Assembly (NCBI GenBank): GCA_026416535.1
Contig: JAOAFA010000098.1
Location: forward strand, 1-64,000
DNA from: Deltaproteobacteria bacterium
GTDB taxonomy: Bacteria > Myxococcota > SpSt-1050
Length of the DNA stretch: 64,000 nucleotides
Direction: 5' to 3'
Under the pieces are notes generated by a model that saw only the letters and a list, made by a program, of their open reading frames with translations, ran no database searches and was not told the origin of the DNA. A program made the position numbers and the translations under genes. Below, piece after piece: positions 13,590 to 27,393 of the stretch; the stretch's first letter is position 1, and each line of letters starts with the position of its first letter.

Positions 13590-15659
13590 TTAAAAATCTA
13601 TTCTCTTTTCTAATATCGTTCCCCTATAAGAACTCTCTGCAAGCGAGACAAATTGGAACTGAGATCTTATCAATTTCTCACCCTGAGCCGGCCTTATCCT
13701 CACATAGCTACCATCTGGTTGTAAAATTCTTGCCTTCACATTGTCAGATAAAGCTGTTTCAAGAATGACATCTTTTACATATCTCTTTAAGAGTTCATCA
13801 TAAATTGGAAATGCTATTTCATATCTTTTATAAAAATTTCTAGGCATCCAATCAGCACTAGATAGATATATCTTTTCCTCGCCATTAGAGTGAAAATAGA
13901 ATATCCTTGAATGTTCAAGAAATCTGTCTATGATACTTGATACTCTTATGTTTTCACTAATACCCTTAATATTAGGTTTTAAGCAACACATCCCCCTTAC
14001 AATCAAAAATATTTTTACACCACTCATGGAGGCATTGTATAGTGCATTAATAGTATCAGGATCAACAAGAGAATTCATCTTTGCTATTATAAGCCCATTG
14101 CCATATTTTATTTGATTAATTATCTCGTTTCTTATAAGTCGCAATATGGCTGTTCTCAAGTTAGCAGGGGCAACTAATAAGTGTTTAAAATATGGTAGTT
14201 GTTTACCTTGTGCCAATCTGTTAAAATAAACATGAACCTCTTGTCCAATATCCTGATTGGATGTTAATAATCCTAAGTCTGTATAAAGCCTCGTCGTAGT
14301 CGGATGATAATTGCCTGTCCCCAAATGTGTCAAATATATCGTTTTTTGTCCTCTATGCATCACAATTTGAGTTACTTTGCTATGCACCTTGTAGTCCTTT
14401 AAGGGCGGAATAACTTTAACCTTTGCACTCTTTAGTTCTTTCATCCATTTGAGGTTTGTTTTTTCATCAAACCTAGCTTTTATTTCAACATATACATATA
14501 CATTCTTCCCAGAGTTAGCTGCCTGCTTAAGAAACTCTAGTAGCATTGACTTTTCACCGGCCCTATATATGACATGAAAAATATCAGTAACATTAGGATC
14601 GGTACTCGCTTCCTTGATAAAATTCACAACAATATCAAAAGAATCATAGGGATGGTGCAGTAATACATCATGTTTTTGAATTAGATCAAGGATCTTTCCG
14701 GGTTTATTAAAAGGTGTTGGAATAACTGGGGTAATTTTTGGATACTTCAAATCATCAAATCCTTCATAATCGAGGACGATACTAAAGGATTTGAGATTTA
14801 AGGGCATGCTAAATCTATAAATAGAGATAGAGTCTATTCTGAGTGCTGAGGCTATGAAAATAGCACCCTCAGGATATACGGGAGAATCGACTTCAAGCCT
14901 TACTACTCGAGGTATCCTCTTACTCTTAATTCCTTTTTCAACAAAATTATCAAGCGACTCTTCATCAAACTCATAAGATATGTTATGTTCTCTAATAATT
15001 TTAAATGGAAATGCCTCGATAATATCCCTCTGAGGAAAAAATTGCCTTATGTGAGAGATGATCCACCTCTCAATCAAAACCAAAGATAACCTATACTTTT
15101 CATCTTCTACTTTTATTAATCTGTTGTCAGTTGTATCGAATTCTACAATTGCGTATTCCTCAACAAACCTGACGTATATATATATGGCTTCACTTTTTAA
15201 CTCTGGTATCGGTTCGTTTAGCTTCCTTATCACTATATTTAGTTTAGGCAACTTTGCCATAACCTGTTTATCAATATCATCACTGATAATATCAGGTTCG
15301 TAATAAATCATAATACCTTCACTTTTGAGTTTTGACATTATTACATTAAACAACTCTGCCTGCCGATTTTTTTGCCTCACAACCTCTTCTCTTGCCTGAA
15401 ATATGACTCTATTTACAGGATATCCATCAGGTAGCCTCTTCGTTGGATATTTCCTAAATATCTTTGATAACTCTGCAAACCTGACTTTAAAAAACTCATC
15501 AAGGTTAGAACTCACAATTGTCAAGAATCTAAGCCTTTCCAGTAATGGAACAGTGTCATCAGCCGCCTCTTCTAGTACTCTATTGTTAAAGGAGAGCCAG
15601 CTCAAATCTCTGTTAAATAGCAGTTTTATATACTCACCACTCATATGACTACGCTCCAT
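13590..15659 (-). CDS. ppk1: Polyphosphate kinase 1
   Basis: LFNRDLSWLSFNNRVLEEA, DYKVHSKV, THLGTGNYHPTTTRLYTDLGLLT, DRFLEHSRIFYF, SSADWMPRN. Confidence 0.97.
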   Translation of the reverse strand: MERSHMSGEYIKLLFNRDLSWLSFNNRVLEEAADDTVPLLERLRFLTIVSSNLDEFFKVRFAELSKIFRKYPTKRLPDGYPVNRVIFQAREEVVRQKNRQAELFNVIMSKLKSEGIMIYYEPDIISDDIDKQVMAKLPKLNIVIRKLNEPIPELKSEAIYIYVRFVEEYAIVEFDTTDNRLIKVEDEKYRLSLVLIERWIISHIRQFFPQRDIIEAFPFKIIREHNISYEFDEESLDNFVEKGIKSKRIPRVVRLEVDSPVYPEGAIFIASALRIDSISIYRFSMPLNLKSFSIVLDYEGFDDLKYPKITPVIPTPFNKPGKILDLIQKHDVLLHHPYDSFDIVVNFIKEASTDPNVTDIFHVIYRAGEKSMLLEFLKQAANSGKNVYVYVEIKARFDEKTNLKWMKELKSAKVKVIPPLKDYKVHSKVTQIVMHRGQKTIYLTHLGTGNYHPTTTRLYTDLGLLTSNQDIGQEVHVYFNRLAQGKQLPYFKHLLVAPANLRTAILRLIRNEIINQIKYGNGLIIAKMNSLVDPDTINALYNASMSGVKIFLIVRGMCCLKPNIKGISENIRVSSIIDRFLEHSRIFYFHSNGEEKIYLSSADWMPRNFYKRYEIAFPIYDELLKRYVKDVILETALSDNVKARILQPDGSYVRIRPAQGEKLIRSQFQFVSLAESSYRGTILEKRIDF

Positions 15660-15707: not shown

Positions 15708-16523
15708 CTATTTATTCGGTTTTACAAAATAGCTCATTATTCTATGGTATTTGTCAGATAGTTCATAGATAAGCTTGAATCTTTTATTCAAATCATCTTC
15801 AAATTCAAGTAAGGATTCTATACTCTTTATTTTTAATAACAGTTCATTTTTTCGTGATTTTATTTCATTTTCGTACTCATAAAAACTTGACATAGGATGA
15901 AAGGAATCTTTGCTTATATGGAAAGCACTTAAAAAATCAAGAGATGGTTCAAGATAAATATCATCGCTTATGTCATATTCATATTTTAATTTTTTATAAA
16001 AACATATGACAGGGCCTATCTTAATATTCTTAATCGTATCTGCCCCAAGGTGTTTATACATAGATCTTCTCATATCCCCATCTACTGCATTCTCTATTAT
16101 CCACATAAAACTTTTTTCAGTAAAATGAATTAGTTCCCTATGACCCTCTTCTTTTACCAATGAGGTAATCTTCTTAGACGAAAACTCAGACCTAAATAAT
16201 ATATTCTTCAATACAAATCCGGGACCTTTATATTGTAGATACACATTTTTACCTCCACCTTTGTATCTAAGTCTTAAGCTAGCACCCGAACGAAAGACTC
16301 GAAAATCCTCGGTATCCAAGAATTGATCTATAAAACTATTAATCTTTATAAGTCTTAGCTTTTTGCGTTTTTCAAAGAACTTAATTATATCATTATACTC
16401 ACTTTCGTATAACCTTTTTTTTAATTCTATCTCAACTTTTTTAGAATCCTCAATTCTGAGCTTCTCCAGAATATAAGTGTTTGTTAAACCCAATAAAAAA
16501 TCTCCAAATCCACTTGATTTCAT
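15708..16523 (-). CDS. CYTH domain protein (triphosphate tunnel metalloenzyme-like)
   Basis: VEIELKKR (ExExK), QFLDTEDFRVFRSGASLRLRYKGG, Y-E-Y-E-N-E-I-K acidic strand; next to ppk1. Confidence 0.72.
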   Translation of the reverse strand: MKSSGFGDFLLGLTNTYILEKLRIEDSKKVEIELKKRLYESEYNDIIKFFEKRKKLRLIKINSFIDQFLDTEDFRVFRSGASLRLRYKGGGKNVYLQYKGPGFVLKNILFRSEFSSKKITSLVKEEGHRELIHFTEKSFMWIIENAVDGDMRRSMYKHLGADTIKNIKIGPVICFYKKLKYEYDISDDIYLEPSLDFLSAFHISKDSFHPMSSFYEYENEIKSRKNELLLKIKSIESLLEFEDDLNKRFKLIYELSDKYHRIMSYFVKPNK

Positions 16524-16566: not shown

Positions 16567-17148
16567 TCAAAAGACATATTTTATTGATGGATAAATCATG
16601 ACCGCTTTAGTATTTATGTTAAGGATATAAGAAAAAGCAAATTCAACACCAAGCCTTAATCCTTTCCTATAAGAATCATAACCAATACCTGTAGCTAAAC
16701 CAAAATCTGGCAAAAAAGAACCTTTATTATTTGGTACTGGTGATAACAAAACCCCACCTCCAAATAACTTTATGGGGATAAAGATATCTGTTCCTGCTGA
16801 AATCTTATATTGATAAGCCAGGTTTGTAAAGATAAGGGTAAAATTATCATAATTTACCTTATCTTTTTCTAAATCGCCGGTCTTCTTTTCAACTGCATTA
16901 TTGGAAACCATAGAGGTAGCGAAAGATAGCCCTGCCATACTCGATTTGTTAAACGAGTATCCTAAAATGAAATTAAAGTAAGGTTCGGAGTTAGAGTAGC
17001 TTCTATTCCCACCTATTGTAAAAAACAATCCAGGATTAACTTCACTCATCAACCCTGTATATGGCTCTGCGGAATATATATTAAAAGTAAATAAAAAACT
17101 TGCGATAAATGTTATAACACCTCCTAATTCCTTTTTTATCTTTACCAT
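16567..17148 (-). CDS. Secreted outer-membrane beta-barrel-like protein
   Basis: Signal peptide MVKIKKELGGVITFIASFLFTFNIYSAE; alternating amphipathic strands; C-terminal aromatic residue (YPSIKYVF). Confidence 0.55.
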   Translation of the reverse strand: MVKIKKELGGVITFIASFLFTFNIYSAEPYTGLMSEVNPGLFFTIGGNRSYSNSEPYFNFILGYSFNKSSMAGLSFATSMVSNNAVEKKTGDLEKDKVNYDNFTLIFTNLAYQYKISAGTDIFIPIKLFGGGVLLSPVPNNKGSFLPDFGLATGIGYDSYRKGLRLGVEFAFSYILNINTKAVMIYPSIKYVF

Positions 17149-17172
17149 ATATTTCTCCCTCTTAATAAAAGG

Positions 17173-18912
17173 TTACTGACCAGCACTTTTAAATATGAAC
17201 GGATATCTTACTACTACTATACCACCACCTTTAGGAGCAGGAAACATCCACCTTTTTATGTTTCTAATAATGCAGTCTTCTACGGCAGCATTGTTCATCT
17301 CCGTTTGTTCAATCTCAGCCTCAGATACAGAACCATTTGAAGATATTGTGAATTTAACAGCTATTTTACCATACAAATTAGGATTTTTACTAAGCTCCTT
17401 CTCATAGCAATACTTGATCTGTGCCCAATAGCGTTTAATCACTTTAGCAACTACATCTTTATCAAGGCCACCCACCATCACGAGTTTTCCTGTGGATACA
17501 GCCTCTTCGGACTTGCCTCCTGCACCGAGATTAAAATCTCCGTGAGCTCTCCTACTTTTACCTCCCCCAATGCCGATTCCACCGAGTGCCGCTACACCAC
17601 CTCCCCCACCTCCACCCCTTGAACCCAAACCACCAAGACCCCCAGAATCACCCATCATCGTTCCGTGTAGGCCACCCAATGCATTATTGATACCAGCCCC
17701 TAATCCCGCACCAAATATAGAATTCATAGCGGGATTACCCCCCGCCCCTCTCAAAATCCCCAATATTCCGGATTTTAGGGCTATCTTCCTGTTTTCTACT
17801 CTTCTATTTGGATCAGCAATATTTGGACCCTTTACTGGAGGCCTTTTTTCATCAATTACCTTGCCAATCTTCTTTTCAGTTATTGCCTTCATCTCAAGTT
17901 CCTTCTTTTCAACCTTCTTTGGAGCCTCTTTTACGACAACTTTTGCAAATCTATTTAAACTCTTTTGCAAATCCTCAGGTGGTGTTGTTAGAGTATCCTT
18001 GAAAAATACTACCATGATAAACAAAGTTATTGCCAAGAAGAGGATCGAGGATATCAGCCATTGAGCAAACCTATAGTCCATGTTTTTAAGCAAATCTTGC
18101 TTGGGCGCGCTCTTGGGATGGACATATCTAATTATAATGTCAATCGGACCATTTTTAAGAACTATTACCTCGTTTAGCCTCAATTGAATATTTTTCTTGG
18201 TATCAGTCTCCACTCTTTTACCGTCAACGAATTGAATAACATCCCAGTTTTCCGGAACATTGACAACATGAGAAGAACCCTCAGTAGTTATTAGTTGGAA
18301 TCTGTCAAATTTTATATATTCCTCTGGTATAACAAAATCATTATCTTCAGATGTCCCTATGTTAATCTCGGACTTTTTGCCAATGATGGCCACTTCGCCT
18401 ATTATTCCACCTAACCATCTCACTATTACATCAGGCACTTTATTAATCTCATCAGCCTTATCTTCCTCCAGCCTTTTTACAGAGACATACATCTCTAGCG
18501 AGTCAGCGGATTTCCTTCTTATCTTCTTCGCCTTCTTTTCTTTATCTTTTATTACTACGTTTTTGGTCCTATCACTTTTGGCTACTTGCTCAACTCTTTC
18601 ATCAATAGATGACTTATCCTCAAGAACAAGTCTTATTTCGTACTCACCAATTTTGATTATATCATCGTTGCTCAAAGTTTTTTCTCTTACTTTTTCACCA
18701 TTCACGAAGACACCGCTCTTAGAACCCATATCCATCAAACTGAGATTTCCTTCTTTATTCACCCTTATCATACAATGGAGACCACTCACATTCTCGGACT
18801 CTAACCTAATATTAGCAGCCGTAGATGAACCAACAATTATACTCTCTTTTTCAAATTCAAATATGTCCTCTTTACCATCAGGACTCTTTACCAAAAATCT
18901 GTATCTCATCAT
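17173..18912 (-). CDS. FHA domain protein with Gly-rich linker and AgmX/PglI (TonB-like) C-terminal domain
   Basis: N-terminal FHA (IIVGSSTAANIRLESENVSGLHCMI...GVFVNGEKV); one TM segment; Gly-rich linker; C-terminus YWAQIKYCYEKELSKNPNLYGKIAVKFTISSNGSVSEAEI. Confidence 0.85.
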   Translation of the reverse strand: MMRYRFLVKSPDGKEDIFEFEKESIIVGSSTAANIRLESENVSGLHCMIRVNKEGNLSLMDMGSKSGVFVNGEKVREKTLSNDDIIKIGEYEIRLVLEDKSSIDERVEQVAKSDRTKNVVIKDKEKKAKKIRRKSADSLEMYVSVKRLEEDKADEINKVPDVIVRWLGGIIGEVAIIGKKSEINIGTSEDNDFVIPEEYIKFDRFQLITTEGSSHVVNVPENWDVIQFVDGKRVETDTKKNIQLRLNEVIVLKNGPIDIIIRYVHPKSAPKQDLLKNMDYRFAQWLISSILFLAITLFIMVVFFKDTLTTPPEDLQKSLNRFAKVVVKEAPKKVEKKELEMKAITEKKIGKVIDEKRPPVKGPNIADPNRRVENRKIALKSGILGILRGAGGNPAMNSIFGAGLGAGINNALGGLHGTMMGDSGGLGGLGSRGGGGGGGVAALGGIGIGGGKSRRAHGDFNLGAGGKSEEAVSTGKLVMVGGLDKDVVAKVIKRYWAQIKYCYEKELSKNPNLYGKIAVKFTISSNGSVSEAEIEQTEMNNAAVEDCIIRNIKRWMFPAPKGGGIVVVRYPFIFKSAGQ

Positions 18913-18933
18913 AACCTCACTCTTTTATGCGTT

Positions 18934-19191
18934 TTATAGTTTATCTACTGACTTAAAAAGCTCTGGTTCAAAATTCTCTCTAACCTTTATTAATCTACCA
19001 AACTGAGCCTCTTTTCGTGATGAGATATAAGAACCATCTGGTTTCTTTAATTCACCCTGTATCGTAACATCAGAAAAGTCAATGATTGTTTTCTGTTTAT
19101 ATACAATCTTATCTCCCGGACCAGGCTCTTGAGCATATACATATGAGGTAAACATTAAGAGAAGTACAAATAAAGATATAGTTTTCCTCAT
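18934..19191 (-). CDS. Small secreted conserved protein of the AgmX cluster
   Basis: Signal peptide MRKTISLFVLLLMFTSYVYAQ; motif IDFSDVTIQGELKKPDGSYISSRKEAQF. Confidence 0.7.
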   Translation of the reverse strand: MRKTISLFVLLLMFTSYVYAQEPGPGDKIVYKQKTIIDFSDVTIQGELKKPDGSYISSRKEAQFGRLIKVRENFEPELFKSVDKL

Positions 19192-19257
19192 AACTACCTC
19201 CTATACTAAGCTACATTATACCAAACATTCTAAGAAAATTCCACAAATTCATGACAT

Positions 19258-20883
19258 TCATTGTTGACCCTCTTGCTTTTCTTTGCTCTCCTCATTTTTT
19301 GAATCTTGCTGCTTGTCTTTTTCTGGCTCTTTTGATTTTTCACTTCCTGAGCTCGCCTTCTCTTCTTCCTTCTTTTTTGCCTCCTCTAGTAAAGTAGATT
19401 TTTTATCCTCTACACTTTTTTTCGTGGTCTCTTCCTCTTCCTTAATCCCTTTTTCCTGCTCAGCTTTTTTCTTTTCTTCCTCAGCCCGTTTTTTAGTCTC
19501 TTCCTCTGCCTTTTTCCTTGCTAATTCCTCTTCCCTAATTTTATCCTCGATAACTTTGAGCCTAGACTTTACTTCTTTATCATCAGGTTTAATTTTTAAA
19601 CATTCTAATAGATTATCTCTTGCCTCTTGCAGCTTACCTTCAGAGATTAAAGCTTCTACTTTCCCAATTAATTCTTTAAACTTTTCTTCCATTTGTCTCT
19701 TCTTTTCTTCTTCAGCCTTCTTCTTCGCCTCTTCCTCTTTCATTTTTCTTTCCTGCTCATCTAACATTCTTTTCTGTATTTCAGCCTGCTTTTTCTGCTC
19801 TTCCAGTTTTGCAATCATCGCTATTGCTTTTTGTTTCAAGTCATTATCCTTGGTCGCCGAAGATACAAACTTTTTGTAAAGCTCAATAGCCTCATCTATC
19901 TTTTTTAGATATGTATGATTTACAAATGCCTGATAATAAAATACCTCGTATCTTTTTGGATTCAACTTTATTACCTCTTCGAGTTTATTCATTGCCTCCT
20001 GAGGTTTCTGCAATCCTATTAAAGAGAGAGCAAGCTGGAAATGGGCATTCTCATTATGTGGCTCCAATGCCGCAACAACTTTAAAGTGATTAAAAGCTGC
20101 ATTGTAATCCTTAAAGTGAAGTGCTACGGTTCCGAGATTTTGATGTGCTTCAATATTATTGGGATCAAGCTCAATTGCCATTCTAAAATATCCCATTGCT
20201 GAGACATAATCCTCCATCTTTATAGCTATCATTCCAAGATTGTTTCTAATAGAGGCGTCTTTGGGATCAAGCTTGCCTGCATTTCCCAATGTCAGTTTTG
20301 CAAGTTTATAATTACCCTGGTCATAATAAATTAAAGATAGATTTTTATAAGCCTCAACATTGTCTGGATCCCTAGATAATAGTTCTCTAATCACTGCCTC
20401 TGCCTTTTGATACTCTTTGCTCAAACGATAAAATACTGCTATATTATTTAAAATCTTACTATTGTTGGGAAACTTTTTTAGCATTTCATTCAAAAATTTT
20501 ATTCCTTCACTAAATTTACCTGCCTCTTTGTAAATCAACGCTTTAGCTAGGACAGGCTCTATATTCGTTGGATCTACATTAATAGCCTTATCACAATAAG
20601 ACAGTGCCTCCATGATATTGTCCATCTTAACCTGTATAGCAGCAAGATTTAAATATGCCTTATAATTCTTTGGATCCTTCCTAACCACATCAGAAAAGGC
20701 TTTCATTGCCTCCGAGTAGTTACCTTGATTATAGAGTTGAACACCTCTTAGAAAATCATCTTCTGGCGAAGATTCTACAACTTTAATTTGTTTTTCCGTT
20801 GGGGCCTCCACTTTCGGTGGCGGGCAGCCATAAATAAAAACTATCAACCCAATTAACAAACAATAAAGACTTTTTACTCTCAT
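19258..20883 (-). CDS. TPR repeat lipoprotein with long charged coiled-coil C-terminus
   Basis: MRVKSLYCLLIGLIVFIYGC lipobox; about 8 TPRs; C-terminal E/K-rich region. ATG at 20883 with AGAGGT upstream. Confidence 0.85.
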   Translation of the reverse strand: MRVKSLYCLLIGLIVFIYGCPPPKVEAPTEKQIKVVESSPEDDFLRGVQLYNQGNYSEAMKAFSDVVRKDPKNYKAYLNLAAIQVKMDNIMEALSYCDKAINVDPTNIEPVLAKALIYKEAGKFSEGIKFLNEMLKKFPNNSKILNNIAVFYRLSKEYQKAEAVIRELLSRDPDNVEAYKNLSLIYYDQGNYKLAKLTLGNAGKLDPKDASIRNNLGMIAIKMEDYVSAMGYFRMAIELDPNNIEAHQNLGTVALHFKDYNAAFNHFKVVAALEPHNENAHFQLALSLIGLQKPQEAMNKLEEVIKLNPKRYEVFYYQAFVNHTYLKKIDEAIELYKKFVSSATKDNDLKQKAIAMIAKLEEQKKQAEIQKRMLDEQERKMKEEEAKKKAEEEKKRQMEEKFKELIGKVEALISEGKLQEARDNLLECLKIKPDDKEVKSRLKVIEDKIREEELARKKAEEETKKRAEEEKKKAEQEKGIKEEEETTKKSVEDKKSTLLEEAKKKEEEKASSGSEKSKEPEKDKQQDSKNEESKEKQEGQQ

Positions 20884-20905
20884 TATTGAATTACCTCTCA
20901 TAATT

Positions 20906-23900
20906 TTATTCCTCGGGTGATTTTTCTTTATCCTGCGGTTCGGATACTTCTTCGTCTGACTCTTTCTCAGTCTCTCCCTCACCTTCTTCCTTACCCTCCT
21001 CCTTTGATTTCTTACCCTCTTCCTTTTTCACTTCTTCCTTGGTTTTCTCCTCTTTTTTGGGGGGTTCTTCTACTTTTGTCGTTAATGATGGATAGAACAA
21101 CTGCCCATAGAAATATTCTTTGGCTACATATCTTGTTTCTGGAAGATCGGGATAAGAGCCAGGTTTGTATCCGTCTAACCTTTCTTGTGCTATCCTGGAA
21201 TACTCGTTATAAATACTCAGCTCATACGATTTAGCAAGGCTTTTTTCATATGCCTCTATAGCCTTCTCTTCAACTGGAAAGGCCATATTTTGAAGCTCGG
21301 CAATATATATCTCTTTTTGTTCTTCATTTAAGTTTTTAGGAATAGGCGCCTCCAGCAATGTCTTTGTAAAATCCTGGTACATCATACCTATACGACATAG
21401 AGCAGCAATACCAACATCCCCTTGTCCCATTTGCAGAATAGCTGTATATTCTTTAACCAACTTATCAAGCTTTTCTGCCTTCTCTTTTAATTGTTTTTTC
21501 ATTACACTCTCAGGGAGCTGAAGTTTTAATGACATATAGTTCTTAAAGGCAGAATCAGTAAGTAAAAATCTGGCGTTTGCTATGTAGTAAAAAGTCTTCT
21601 CACTTGCATCACCTTTTTTCAACTTTTCAGCAATTTTCAAAAGTGCCTGTAGTTCCTTTTCATAGGCAGGTATTTGCCCCAGCTTTTTGTAAATCATCGC
21701 CATTTCATATTGGGCTTCAATTATATCAGCTATGTTGGCCTCCTTAGGTTTTCCCACAATACCTTTGTATATAGCCTTTGCCTTTTCATAGTCTTTCATT
21801 TCATTGTATATTGAAGCAATTTTCATCTGCACCTGAATAACATCTTTATTTGTGGGAAATGCCTTAATATAAGTCTGATAATTTGCAATTGCCCCCTTTA
21901 GGTCACCAGTCGCCTCTCTAAACAAAGCAGCGTTATAAATAGCATCTCCTGCCTCCTTGGTCTTTTTCTTTAGTTTTTCAAAATAAATCTCATAATATTT
22001 GCTAGCATTCACAAAATCAGCAATCTTCTCATAATAATAGCCAAGCTTATAAAAAGTCGGCTCATAAAACTCTGACTTCGGAAACTTCTCAACCAAAAGT
22101 AGAGCAGCTTCGATGGCTTTATCTATATACTTAGCGTCTGCAAATAGGATATGTGCGTTATTTAATGCTCTATCCGTATGCTTGGCTTGAGGATATTTAT
22201 TAACATAATCTCTAAACGCAACTGCGGCATCAAGAGTCTTCCCCTTCTTTTGCATGTCGATTATCATATTAAAAGCAGACCCCTCAATCACTTCCTGTAA
22301 ATGAGCTTGATAAAGCTTGTTCTTTTCAGCTGGATCCTTTTGAGATGCAAGCGGTTTAATCTTTATAAATTTACTTGCCCAAAAAAACAGAGATGCCCAA
22401 TCCTCTTTTATCTCATAGGAGTTTAAAATCATATCTGCAGCGCCAAGGGCAAATTTATTGTCTGGGAATTTCTCAATAAATTCCCCAAACCTCTTTGATG
22501 CCTCATCAAAATGATTGTACTTATAATAAATAGTAGCAGCCTTAAATTTAACTGCAAAAAATTCTTTGTGATTGGGGGCGAGCTGCGTAAATTCATCACA
22601 AGCCTTAGCCAGCTCCAATTCTATCTTTGGAATCTCTTTCTTCTCATATGTCTTACCTTTCTCAAGTTTAATAAATTTCTCGACTCTCTTTACTGCTCCC
22701 TTGCTCTTCTTCTCATCAACCTTCCCCTCTTTTAGAGTTTCGGCTTTCTGACCCTTCTCCATAATTTCTACCATTTTTTCATAGGCAAGAACCCTATTAT
22801 AGGCAGCTGTCACTGAATATTTTCCCTTTGGATCCTGTTTCACCACAAGCGCATAATTAATAGCCGCGTTTTCATAGTCTTGAAGTGCCCAAAGTATTTC
22901 GGCGTAGAAGAACCTCATAGAATAAGAATGTTCTGCCTTTGGAAAGTTATCAAGATACTCCTTATAAATATCTCTTGCAAGGGCATAGGTCTTAACATCT
23001 TTTGTCTTCTGAGCCTCTCTGTGATATTCCTGCACAATGTCTCTTAATGCCTCTTCTGTCAACTCATAAGCCTTTTCAAGGGCAAATTTGTTTTCGGCAT
23101 TTTGATTCGCCCATGGTGAATTTGGTTTATAAAGGTCTACTAATCTTCTAATCTCCTTTTTCACCATTTCAGTATTGTTTAGTTTTTTATAATTTTGAAC
23201 TATATTACTTTGAAATTCAGGACACTCCGGTGCGTTTGGAAATTCATTTATAACAAGCCTATATGTCTTTATTGCCTGGTCATACTTCCCTTGGTCATCA
23301 TAGACTCTCGCAAGCGTTTTTAACAAATCTTTTAGCTTTTGCCGACCCGCTACCTTCTCCCAATAATCCTTCGCCTCATCTACTGCATCTACCTGAGAAA
23401 AGAACAATGCCAAATCATTTAATGCCTCTCTTTCAAGTCTTATCTTGGTCTTATCTCCCTCTTTTTGAGCAAATGCAACAACCTGTTTTAACTTTTCTAT
23501 CCCTTTTTCATATTCCCCAAGATTATAATCACACCAAGCAAGTTTATAAAGAGCAACCACGGTTATTTTAGGATCGTTAAATGTCAAGGCCTTCTCATAG
23601 GCCTGAACGGCCTTAAATACCTCGTTATTGTTGAAAAAATGTTCTCCCAAAGAGAGATAAGCATCGGGTGCATATTTACTCTTCGGATACTTCTTAATCA
23701 ACTCCCAGTAATACTTAACACCTTCATTTTTCTTCCCCATTTCATAAAGGTTGTACCCCAATACAAATAGAACCTCGTCTTTTCTTGGGTAATCAGGATA
23801 CTCTTTAATTATTTTTTCATAAATATCTAAAGCCTGTTTCCTATATAACTCTGACTGCCTAGTATTTATCTTTATCTTTTCGCATGCTTTCAGGTCTTTC

Positions 23901-24307
23901 GTTTTTTTATTACACTCATCTAATCTCTTTTCATATTCATACATCTCCTGAAAATAGACATATTTTGATTTCTCCCAGTAGAGCTCAGCAAGTTGAAACA
24001 TAACATCAGCCTTTTTCGGACCCTTTTCAAATCTTGTAATTATGTCTTTCAGCATCTTAATCGCCTCATCCCTCTTCTTATCCGCGAGCTCATCTCTCGA
24101 GACCTCTTTCTCCTCAGGTTTCGGCATATCAATCTTAGCCGGCCCAGCAGGGGTCTTCTTCTTCTCTTCTTTCTCTTTCTCGGCCTTCCCTTTCTTCTCT
24201 TTCTTCTCCCCCTTAGATTCCTGGGCAAAAGAAAGTGGTGAAATAAAAATGGAACAAGTAAAGAAAATCGAAATAATTAATGAAATTAAAATAGCTACTC
24301 TTTTCAT
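20906..24307 (-). CDS. Large secreted TPR repeat protein
   Basis: About 1133 aa; signal peptide MKRVAILISLIISIFFTCSIFISPLSFAQ; many TPRs; E/K-rich tail. Confidence 0.85.
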   Translation of the reverse strand: MKRVAILISLIISIFFTCSIFISPLSFAQESKGEKKEKKGKAEKEKEEKKKTPAGPAKIDMPKPEEKEVSRDELADKKRDEAIKMLKDIITRFEKGPKKADVMFQLAELYWEKSKYVYFQEMYEYEKRLDECNKKTKDLKACEKIKINTRQSELYRKQALDIYEKIIKEYPDYPRKDEVLFVLGYNLYEMGKKNEGVKYYWELIKKYPKSKYAPDAYLSLGEHFFNNNEVFKAVQAYEKALTFNDPKITVVALYKLAWCDYNLGEYEKGIEKLKQVVAFAQKEGDKTKIRLEREALNDLALFFSQVDAVDEAKDYWEKVAGRQKLKDLLKTLARVYDDQGKYDQAIKTYRLVINEFPNAPECPEFQSNIVQNYKKLNNTEMVKKEIRRLVDLYKPNSPWANQNAENKFALEKAYELTEEALRDIVQEYHREAQKTKDVKTYALARDIYKEYLDNFPKAEHSYSMRFFYAEILWALQDYENAAINYALVVKQDPKGKYSVTAAYNRVLAYEKMVEIMEKGQKAETLKEGKVDEKKSKGAVKRVEKFIKLEKGKTYEKKEIPKIELELAKACDEFTQLAPNHKEFFAVKFKAATIYYKYNHFDEASKRFGEFIEKFPDNKFALGAADMILNSYEIKEDWASLFFWASKFIKIKPLASQKDPAEKNKLYQAHLQEVIEGSAFNMIIDMQKKGKTLDAAVAFRDYVNKYPQAKHTDRALNNAHILFADAKYIDKAIEAALLLVEKFPKSEFYEPTFYKLGYYYEKIADFVNASKYYEIYFEKLKKKTKEAGDAIYNAALFREATGDLKGAIANYQTYIKAFPTNKDVIQVQMKIASIYNEMKDYEKAKAIYKGIVGKPKEANIADIIEAQYEMAMIYKKLGQIPAYEKELQALLKIAEKLKKGDASEKTFYYIANARFLLTDSAFKNYMSLKLQLPESVMKKQLKEKAEKLDKLVKEYTAILQMGQGDVGIAALCRIGMMYQDFTKTLLEAPIPKNLNEEQKEIYIAELQNMAFPVEEKAIEAYEKSLAKSYELSIYNEYSRIAQERLDGYKPGSYPDLPETRYVAKEYFYGQLFYPSLTTKVEEPPKKEEKTKEEVKKEEGKKSKEEGKEEGEGETEKESDEEVSEPQDKEKSPEE

Positions 24308-24317
24308 AGTTACACTC

Positions 24318-25895
24318 TCACTTTTTACATTCATCTCTTAGTAAATAATAATAATATCCAAACTCATCTTTCCAATATTCCCCGTTAAAGTCATAAAAAT
24401 CGACTTTGTCAGAATCAACCTTTGGTCTTTTTAATTTTGGCTTTTTACTTACCTGAGTTACCCCTTGTTTTACATCTTGTACCTCCCCCGAGGACTGAAG
24501 AAGTTTCCTCTGGGCATTAACAGTTTCAAAATCAATAAGCTGTGCCTGATTAAGAAAATCTATGAGAGAATCATGTAAATCCACAAGCCTAATCTGAATC
24601 CACTTACCGACTATCTTTACAAGGAGTTCTCTTTGTTGCCTGATATTACCTCTGATAAAATTACCTATCCGAGAATCCTTAAACGAGGCTATCTTATTAG
24701 TCATATCACTTTCTTTGTCAAGCTCTAGTATAAAATAGATAAATTTTTGCAATCTCGGATTTTTCAACAAAAATCTTCTAACTTCCTGTGGTATCTCAGT
24801 CTTTTCAGAAATAGCTGTACTTATCATCATATCAAAAAAGTACTCTGGTGGTTTTGTGGGGTCTGAGACAATAGGTTTTAATTTATCGGGCATTTCTTTA
24901 TATCTCCTATAAAACTCCTCTAATGTCTCCTTTGCCTCATCATAAAGGCAATTCTCGAAATAAACTGTTGCTCTTAATATATAAGTTTCAGGGAAGAACT
25001 GTTCTTTCAAACCAGGAGCCAACAATGTATGAGTTGCACCTATAGCCCTACCGTAGTCCTTTAACTGATAGTATGTCCATCCACCTTCAAAAACAGAGTC
25101 AATCCATTCAGAGTCAAATCTTTCGATCATCTCATAATATTTTGCAGCTTCTTGGTACATACCTAGAGAATAATAATTTCTTGCAAGACCCATAATAGCC
25201 AAATTTCTAACTAATATAAGGTCTCTATCAGCTACAAGGTTAGTATTTTTTACAAGTTTCCCTTCCTTAAATGGAAGCGCATTGTATATTTCCAGAAATA
25301 TTTCATTAGCCTCCTCTACCTTTTGTGCCCTCACTCTTAATATAGCCTTTATGTACAAACCTTTGTAAAAATATTTACTATCTCTACCTATTACATCAAA
25401 AAACCTTTCAGCCTCCCCTACTCTACCTTTCCTAAAAGACAGTTCCCCTACTAAATAATTAATATGATTTAAAGTTTCTGGTGGTAGCTTTTGAAATTCA
25501 GGCGAGTAGTACCTTAGAAGCAATTCAGGTATTACAAGATCATCCTTTAACTTACGAGCTGCTTCAGAAAGACCTTCTATAGCTTTGAGGTAAAATGGAT
25601 GATTTGCCCCAGTCTTTAAAATACTTGCAAAAAAGTATACAGAGGGCCCATATAATCCTATCTTGGATAATGAAGATCCCACGAAATACTCCGCAGCTAA
25701 TTGATTTGCTTGATTTGTATCATTTTCATACACATCAAAGAACTTATAAGCTGCTGAGACATAATTACCAACGTTATACTCATCTATTATTTTTTTAACC
25801 GAAGCTGATAATTTTAGTTCTTCCTCCTTTTTTTGTGCGTTCAAAACCGAGAGAGATATAAAAAAGATTGCAACAAAGATTGTAAATTTTCTCAT
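24318..25895 (-). CDS. Secreted TPR-like repeat protein
   Basis: Signal peptide MRKFTIFVAIFFISLSVLNAQ; helical TPR-like repeats. Confidence 0.75.
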   Translation of the reverse strand: MRKFTIFVAIFFISLSVLNAQKKEEELKLSASVKKIIDEYNVGNYVSAAYKFFDVYENDTNQANQLAAEYFVGSSLSKIGLYGPSVYFFASILKTGANHPFYLKAIEGLSEAARKLKDDLVIPELLLRYYSPEFQKLPPETLNHINYLVGELSFRKGRVGEAERFFDVIGRDSKYFYKGLYIKAILRVRAQKVEEANEIFLEIYNALPFKEGKLVKNTNLVADRDLILVRNLAIMGLARNYYSLGMYQEAAKYYEMIERFDSEWIDSVFEGGWTYYQLKDYGRAIGATHTLLAPGLKEQFFPETYILRATVYFENCLYDEAKETLEEFYRRYKEMPDKLKPIVSDPTKPPEYFFDMMISTAISEKTEIPQEVRRFLLKNPRLQKFIYFILELDKESDMTNKIASFKDSRIGNFIRGNIRQQRELLVKIVGKWIQIRLVDLHDSLIDFLNQAQLIDFETVNAQRKLLQSSGEVQDVKQGVTQVSKKPKLKRPKVDSDKVDFYDFNGEYWKDEFGYYYYLLRDECKK

Positions 25896-25913
25896 TATAC
25901 TCCCTCCTCCACC

Positions 25914-26636
25914 TTAAAAGAGGAACGATAGATATGCCATAGATAACACAAGTCTATGTTGCGCAGAATTTGATGGAGGTTCAGGTTTGTTCTTTTCCCC
26001 CTCAAACCAACTTTCATCGGCTTTTACGGTATAACCAAAATATCTACATTCAAACTTTAGGTCCACATACTTATTTTTCTTTTCACCAAATTTAAAAAGA
26101 TGCAATTGCATACCACCTGCTAGTGTATAAACAGGTTTTGTCCCATAGGATCTCTCAGTGTCATTTTGGTAATTTGTTGCTACTATGTTGCCAACTCCTC
26201 CACCTCCACTAAGGTAAATATGATAATTAAAAGCCGCTTCCGAAAATAGGCTCAGTTTCCCGTAGATCGGGTATACAACCAGTTCTCCACCGGTCAACCA
26301 CTTTGTTCTTGTCCTCTCAGGTTCATGAGCAGCCATACCCATTTTTCTCAATTCCTTTGATAAATTAGTCTCAGAGCTCATAGTATATAAAAAGAACCCC
26401 CCCAACCCTAAAAAATCAAAAGGGTGAAATATCAATTTCCCCGCAGCTGGCACAAGTGATTGAGAATACCTATCGGCAACAGAAATCCCCCCACCAAAGC
26501 CAACCTCCAACTTCATATCAAGTGGGAATGCCTTCTTTTGAAGAACCTTTATACTTTCATTTTCACTTCCATATATATATCCGATACCTCCTACTGTTAT
26601 TAATAAACATAAAAAGGTAAAGCAAAATCTATTCAT
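25914..26636 (-). CDS. Secreted outer-membrane beta-barrel-like protein
   Basis: Signal peptide MNRFCFTFLCLLITVGGIGYIYG; glycine/aromatic alternating strands; terminal YLSFLF. Confidence 0.55.
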   Translation of the reverse strand: MNRFCFTFLCLLITVGGIGYIYGSENESIKVLQKKAFPLDMKLEVGFGGGISVADRYSQSLVPAAGKLIFHPFDFLGLGGFFLYTMSSETNLSKELRKMGMAAHEPERTRTKWLTGGELVVYPIYGKLSLFSEAAFNYHIYLSGGGGVGNIVATNYQNDTERSYGTKPVYTLAGGMQLHLFKFGEKKNKYVDLKFECRYFGYTVKADESWFEGEKNKPEPPSNSAQHRLVLSMAYLSFLF

Positions 26637-26733: not shown

Positions 26734-27393
26734 TTAGTGTTTGTGCTTAACTGTTTTCTTAACAGATTTTCTAATTTCAACTACTCCACCTGCAGGTCCA
26801 GGCACAGCCCCTTCAACATAAAGAAGGTTATTTTTTGGATCTATTTTATAAATCTTCATATGTTGAATCGTCACTTGTTCATTTCCATAATGGCCGGCCA
26901 TTTTTTTACCTTTCATAACCCTTCCAGGCCATTCTCTATTACCAATAGAACCGGGATGCCTCCTATAAAAATGTGTTCCCCTTGTCATTGGGAATCCTGC
27001 GAAGTTCCATCTCTTCATAACGCCTGTAAAACCTCTCCCCTTTGTCCTTCCCGTCACATCTACAAATTCGCCTTTTGTAAATATCGAATCAACTCTTATC
27101 TCCTGACCAATCTGATATGAATCGAGAGACGTCTTATCAATCCTAAATTCCCTCAAATACTTATGAGGAGCAACATTAAGCTTTTTAAAATAGCCTTCGA
27201 GCGGTTTAGTCAGCCTTTTAGGTTTTTCTATTTCATAACCAAGCTGAAGAGCAGTATAGCCATCTTTCTCCATGGTCCTCTTGTTTACAACAGTACAAGG
27301 TCCTGCCACAATCACTGTTACATTGTGGGCATTCCCATACTCATCAAAGAGAGTTGTCATACCCGCCTTCTTACCTAAAATGCCTGTTAACAT
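26734..27393 (-). CDS. rplC: 50S ribosomal protein L3
   Basis: MLTGILGKKAGMTTLFDEYGN; VDVTGRTKGRGFTGVMKRWNF; HPGSIGNREWPGRVMKGKKMAGHYGNE; VEGAVPGPAGG. Confidence 0.98.
   Translation of the reverse strand: MLTGILGKKAGMTTLFDEYGNAHNVTVIVAGPCTVVNKRTMEKDGYTALQLGYEIEKPKRLTKPLEGYFKKLNVAPHKYLREFRIDKTSLDSYQIGQEIRVDSIFTKGEFVDVTGRTKGRGFTGVMKRWNFAGFPMTRGTHFYRRHPGSIGNREWPGRVMKGKKMAGHYGNEQVTIQHMKIYKIDPKNNLLYVEGAVPGPAGGVVEIRKSVKKTVKHKH

Follow-up and report, generated by a model that had tools for sequence, protein, structure and literature searches.

Seven co-directional genes occupy positions 16567-26636 on the minus strand of the window, the 64,000-nucleotide stretch of DNA analysed here (Table 1). All of the open reading frames lie where the first-pass annotation had placed an envelope gene array, and its description of every product as carrying a signal, a lipobox or a transmembrane segment holds good: an apparent N-terminal export signal is present in six of the seven products, the exception being the FHA domain protein (NfsG). 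N-terminal hydrophobic segments were evident from hydropathy in the A/B, C, D and E products, and the signals of the F and H products, as well as the lipobox of E, were read directly from the sequence. Intergenic spacing is approximately 18-66 nucleotides, with one small overlap that disappears if an alternative start is chosen. The likely start of NfsD is the ATG at 24307, and the lipoprotein NfsE most likely starts at 20883 rather than at an upstream GTG. A promoter scan showed no excess over shuffled sequences (45 sites against an expectation of 45.0), and the surplus of terminator-like sites was slight (12 versus 8.2 in shuffles); because these scans are near the shuffle level, no operon boundary is claimed for the array. 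The same gene order recurs across Myxococcota, and the array is therefore far from a chance arrangement.

Table 1. Predicted features of the cluster in order of transcription, followed by the neighbouring synteny marker.
Feature	Position	Strand	Evidence
NfsA/NfsB (GltA/GltB)-type 8-stranded outer membrane barrel, 240 aa, signal peptide	25914..26636	-	TIGR04565 OMP_myx_plus, 57.9 bits (cut-off 60); AlphaFold2
NfsC/GltC orthologue, exported TPR-type protein, 525 aa	24318..25895	-	NF033756 gliding_GltC, 230 bits, residues 33-524; groups with Nfs in the concatenated tree
NfsD/GltD orthologue, giant exported TPR protein, 1142 aa	20906..24334	-	TPR models; groups with Nfs in trees of D proteins
NfsE/GltE orthologue, TPR lipoprotein, lipobox IYGC, ~541 aa	19258..20883	-	NF033758 gliding_GltE, 128.5 bits; 8 TPR_2 stretches; conserved position
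NfsF/GltF orthologue, small secreted protein, 85 aa	18934..19191	-	40% identity to the C70 homologue in this genome
NfsG/GltG orthologue, 579 aa: FHA, degenerate second FHA-like segment, transmembrane segment, Gly-rich linker, TonB-like AgmX/PglI C-terminal domain	17173..18912	-	NF033760 gliding_GltG, 294.8 bits; alignment
FHA domain of NfsG, residues 26-89	18646..18837	-	PF00498, 61.5 bits, above curated cut-off
Single transmembrane segment of NfsG, residues 281-310	17983..18072	-	Hydropathy
AgmX/PglI (TonB_C-like) periplasmic C-terminal domain of NfsG	17188..17466	-	NF033768, 119.9 bits (window; above curated cut-off), 123.8 bits (genome search)
NfsH/GltH (CglE-family) 8-stranded outer membrane barrel, 193 aa	16567..17148	-	NF033755 gliding_CglE, 63.5 bits (cut-off 70); AlphaFold2
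rplC (ribosomal protein L3), outside the system, synteny marker of the Nfs locus	26734..27393	-	Position upstream of the cluster

The products were assigned to families by NCBIfam and Pfam profile searches, in which several scored below the 'equivalog' cut-offs of models derived from Myxococcaceae gliding proteins. The first and last products, proposed earlier as candidate outer membrane barrels, were both predicted to be eight-stranded in alignment-based AlphaFold2 models (pLDDT approximately 80 for each). Upon comparison with the PDB, the NfsH model best matched NspA and OmpA (E approximately 1e-5), and the A/B model gave weaker matches to OmpT- and OmpA-type barrels. Of the three products annotated as TPR proteins, NfsD and the lipoprotein NfsE match TPR models, and NfsC, of TPR type, matches the GltC model. 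NfsG likewise has the architecture first described for it, with an FHA domain joined through one transmembrane segment and a Gly-rich linker to an AgmX/PglI tail. Between the FHA domain and the transmembrane segment, residues 161-270 form a second, degenerate FHA-like segment (W-G...IG...DF), which is common to GltG and NfsG proteins and also present in short motor-linked GltG-like proteins, and so may be an ancestral cytoplasmic domain.

Of 144 Myxococcota genomes, 138 encode GltC-family proteins, in most cases more than one each, and the order AB-(AB)-C-D-E-F-G-H recurs in most of the loci examined. One or more A/B-type barrel genes always precede C in the loci of relatives, and the small gene between E and G is kept in nearly all of them. 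The resemblance to the Glt/Agl machinery that had been pointed out is true homology, evident from the GltG, GltC, GltE and CglE models, from gene order and protein sizes, and from phylogenetic trees. The placement of the host genome in Myxococcota is drawn from its named relatives and from matches to GltG over the full length within that phylum. Three records titled Bdellovibrio sp. (Tomsk_43_40) (L059), Klebsiella pneumoniae (L110) and Bifidobacterium breve (L136) contain Myxococcota-type Glt/Nfs clusters; the names of these metagenome-assembled genomes are almost surely wrong.

The genome to which the window belongs (2.96 Mb in 134 contigs) has a second cluster of the same layout on contig C70, of which the GltD is 33% identical to the NfsD of the window over 1095 aa. 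In a concatenated tree of G, D and C proteins, the C70 cluster was found with gliding-type loci, grouping with the Glt loci of Myxococcaceae and Anaeromyxobacter-like genomes, whereas the window fell into the other (Nfs) clade. In a tree of 94 D proteins, the Nfs clade comprised 54 sequences (SH support 100), including that of the window and those of Hyalangium, Citreicoccus and Archangium. Four D paralogues were located as tree anchors in genomes that were taken as Myxococcus from the match of protein lengths and positions to published nfs; with these loci added, the window was again placed in the Nfs clade (support 100). The Myxococcus-like locus near 3.95 Mb, encoding proteins of 294, 442, 512, ~1220, 499, ~96, ~682 and 200 aa, groups with the window and reproduces the published table of M. 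xanthus nfsA-H (294-442-512-1202-499-94-682-200 aa, with nfsD at a coordinate of ~3.92 Mb; PMC2875238). The locus at 6.01 Mb groups with Glt, for which the published lengths of M. xanthus gltD-E-F-G-H are 1191-471-89-640-209 aa, and the locus at 2.33 Mb groups with core complexes that are linked to a motor. Because the window groups with the locus that matches the nfs table, its cluster is, on sequence comparison, very probably the orthologue of the characterised Nfs complex of M. xanthus (nfsA-H, MXAN_3371-3378; PMC2875238, PMC3858216), as carried by an uncultured myxobacterial relative, and not a new system. The same high confidence extends to the explanation in its entirety, that of an Nfs-type complex paralogous to the envelope-spanning Glt transducer of Myxococcota, including the mechanism inferred from M. 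xanthus.

The window shares with M. xanthus Nfs its protein sizes, domains, clade and upstream rplC, as well as the exact order C-D-E-F-G-H, but it has one A/B barrel gene instead of the two present in Myxococcus and most relatives, and its NfsG has a shorter N-terminal linker. Its NfsD is ~35-40% identical to that of M. xanthus Nfs, and its host is not known to sporulate. With the Glt gliding transducer (gltA-K, in clusters G1 and G2; PMC3169522) it shares homologous components C to H in the same order, but GltI and GltJ are absent from the window; a GltJ-like protein is encoded on contig C29. A third type of homologous complex, in which GltC, GltD, GltE and GltG form one operon with AglRQS (examples are the M. 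xanthus-type G4 locus and, in the sister genome, L042), has C, D, E and G in common with the window, but the cluster of the window has no motor genes and belongs to a different clade.

The genome encodes four MotA/ExbB proteins, and on contigs C24 and C87 a MotA-like gene is followed by two ExbD genes. These two MotA+ExbD+ExbD operons belong to one clade with the AglRQS-type motors of Myxococcaceae (support 99/99), within which the C24 motor clusters with the second motor of Myxococcaceae, and the C87 motor stands on a branch of its own; the transmembrane Asp is retained in all of their ExbD proteins. The AglRQS motor of M. xanthus is unlinked to either cluster and serves Glt as well as Nfs; AglR binds GltG and NfsG alike (PMC3858216). 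Thus, the earlier remark that no AglRQS/TolQR-like motor is visible is true of the window but uninformative, as motors of the right type are encoded elsewhere in the genome and their absence beside the cluster is normal. The C24 motor genes are part of a third, motor-linked set (L031, 16819-19755) that consists of the MotA-like gene, the two ExbD genes and a gene for a GltG-like protein of 452 aa; the corresponding motor-linked set of the sister genome (L042) adjoins C, D, E and F. No third GltD paralogue that might pair with the motor-linked GltG of C24 was found in the genome, which may reflect an assembly gap, since the MotA gene of C24 is cut off by the end of the contig.

The FHA domain of NfsG in the window has GS...SGLH in place of the canonical GR...SRxH: in the binding pocket, Arg is replaced by Ser and Asn by Ser, while the Ser and His are kept. 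It is established for FHA domains that the Arg in question contacts the phosphate. Alignment distinguishes a Glt type, GR...SRxH, from an Nfs type, GS...S(N/S/G/A)xH, and M. xanthus Nfs has the same Ser at the phosphate-binding position. Across the full set of loci, all 11 Glt-clade domains retain the Arg, as against one of 34 Nfs-clade domains (33 have lost it, that of the window included), and in nine further Nfs-clade proteins the FHA domain is absent or not alignable. Canonical reading of phosphothreonine by the FHA domain of the window is therefore unlikely, judging from these residues, and the Ser/Thr phosphorylation control suggested at first pass is unsupported, even though 14 kinase domains are encoded in the genome. 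Tentatively, and with somewhat less than an even chance of being right, it may be proposed that the FHA domain of the entire Nfs branch has lost phosphothreonine reading, which would have uncoupled Nfs from a kinase control that Glt may keep and left the cytoplasmic domain as a motor-docking scaffold. If so, one machine would have split into a regulated version for motility and an unregulated version for coat packing. The clade-wide loss of the Arg is a concrete and testable difference between sporulation and gliding machines; no report of it was found in the literature on uncultured Myxococcota or nfs distribution, which was covered in part.

That the cluster is the gliding Glt complex itself, serving focal-adhesion motility, might be concluded from family models that are named for gliding and from gltD-H being identical to it in part types and order. 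However, a separate cluster, that of C70, sits in the Glt clade and scores higher against GltG (in one and the same genome search, 435 bits versus 232 bits for the window), and the FHA domain of the window carries the signature of the Nfs clade rather than that of the Glt clade; the Glt assignment is accordingly very improbable. The first-pass annotation had instead read the cluster as an undescribed, motor-less, phospho-regulated trans-envelope system, as no motor gene lies within it and an FHA domain is present in a genome with kinases. This reading is scarcely credible given motors in trans and the loss of the FHA Arg, and 'undescribed' is wrong because of the clear orthology to the characterised nfs locus.

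With gene orthology and order, domain architecture, barrel folds and AglRQS-type motor genes in trans all established for the Nfs-type cluster, its likely role, by analogy, is that of a transducer for motor-driven transport of surface or coat polymers. In M. xanthus, AglR interacts with NfsG, the movement of NfsD depends on AglQ and the proton motive force (PMC3858216, PMC5349195), and deletion of nfs blocks sporulation (PMC2875238). Extrapolating from that organism, an inner-membrane, TolQR-like AglRQS motor would bind the transmembrane and cytoplasmic part of NfsG, and proton flow would drive cycling of the TonB-like C-terminal domain of NfsG across the periplasm, where it would reach the TPR scaffold (C, D, lipoprotein E, and F) and the two outer membrane barrels (A/B-type and H). 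The outer membrane complex and the surface polysaccharide attached to it would thereby be moved laterally over the cell. Such transport packs the spore coat in Myxococcus; in the small-genome, uncultured host of the window, the cargo could be a spore coat or another surface polymer. A variant of the Nfs explanation, with the same mechanism but another cargo and timing, assigns the complex a vegetative job in distributing envelope or capsule polymers, not sporulation. Nfs is sporulation-specific in M. xanthus (PMC2875238), but Nfs-clade loci are spread across many metagenome-assembled genomes of uncultured Myxococcota, some of ~3 Mb, and one Wza-type polysaccharide export protein is encoded in the genome of the window; the vegetative variant has a chance that falls just short of even.

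The Nfs branch of the Agl-Glt/Nfs machines is old and widespread in Myxococcota, often beside rplC, and includes small-genome uncultured lineages that are not known to sporulate, so that 'sporulation machine' is a doubtful name for its ancestral function. Among loci with room for the comparison, rplC was found upstream in 29 of 43 of the Nfs clade versus none of nine of the Glt clade, and a third clade has it downstream of the cluster in 8 of its 20 loci. It also lies upstream of nfsA in Myxococcus-like genomes, whose locus was used for this comparison, as no mention of rplC as the upstream neighbour of M. xanthus nfsA was found in the literature. The rplC of the window, situated between the enolase gene and the Nfs cluster, is the only L3 gene found in its genome. 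The whole neighbourhood that links the lipoprotein gene, by way of eno and rplC, with the genes for a CYTH domain protein and PPK1 is kept in the sister genome. In the window, the gene for the CYTH domain protein (15708-16523) is directly upstream of that for PPK1 (13590-15659); the two point the same way as the cluster and are possibly a polyphosphate pair.
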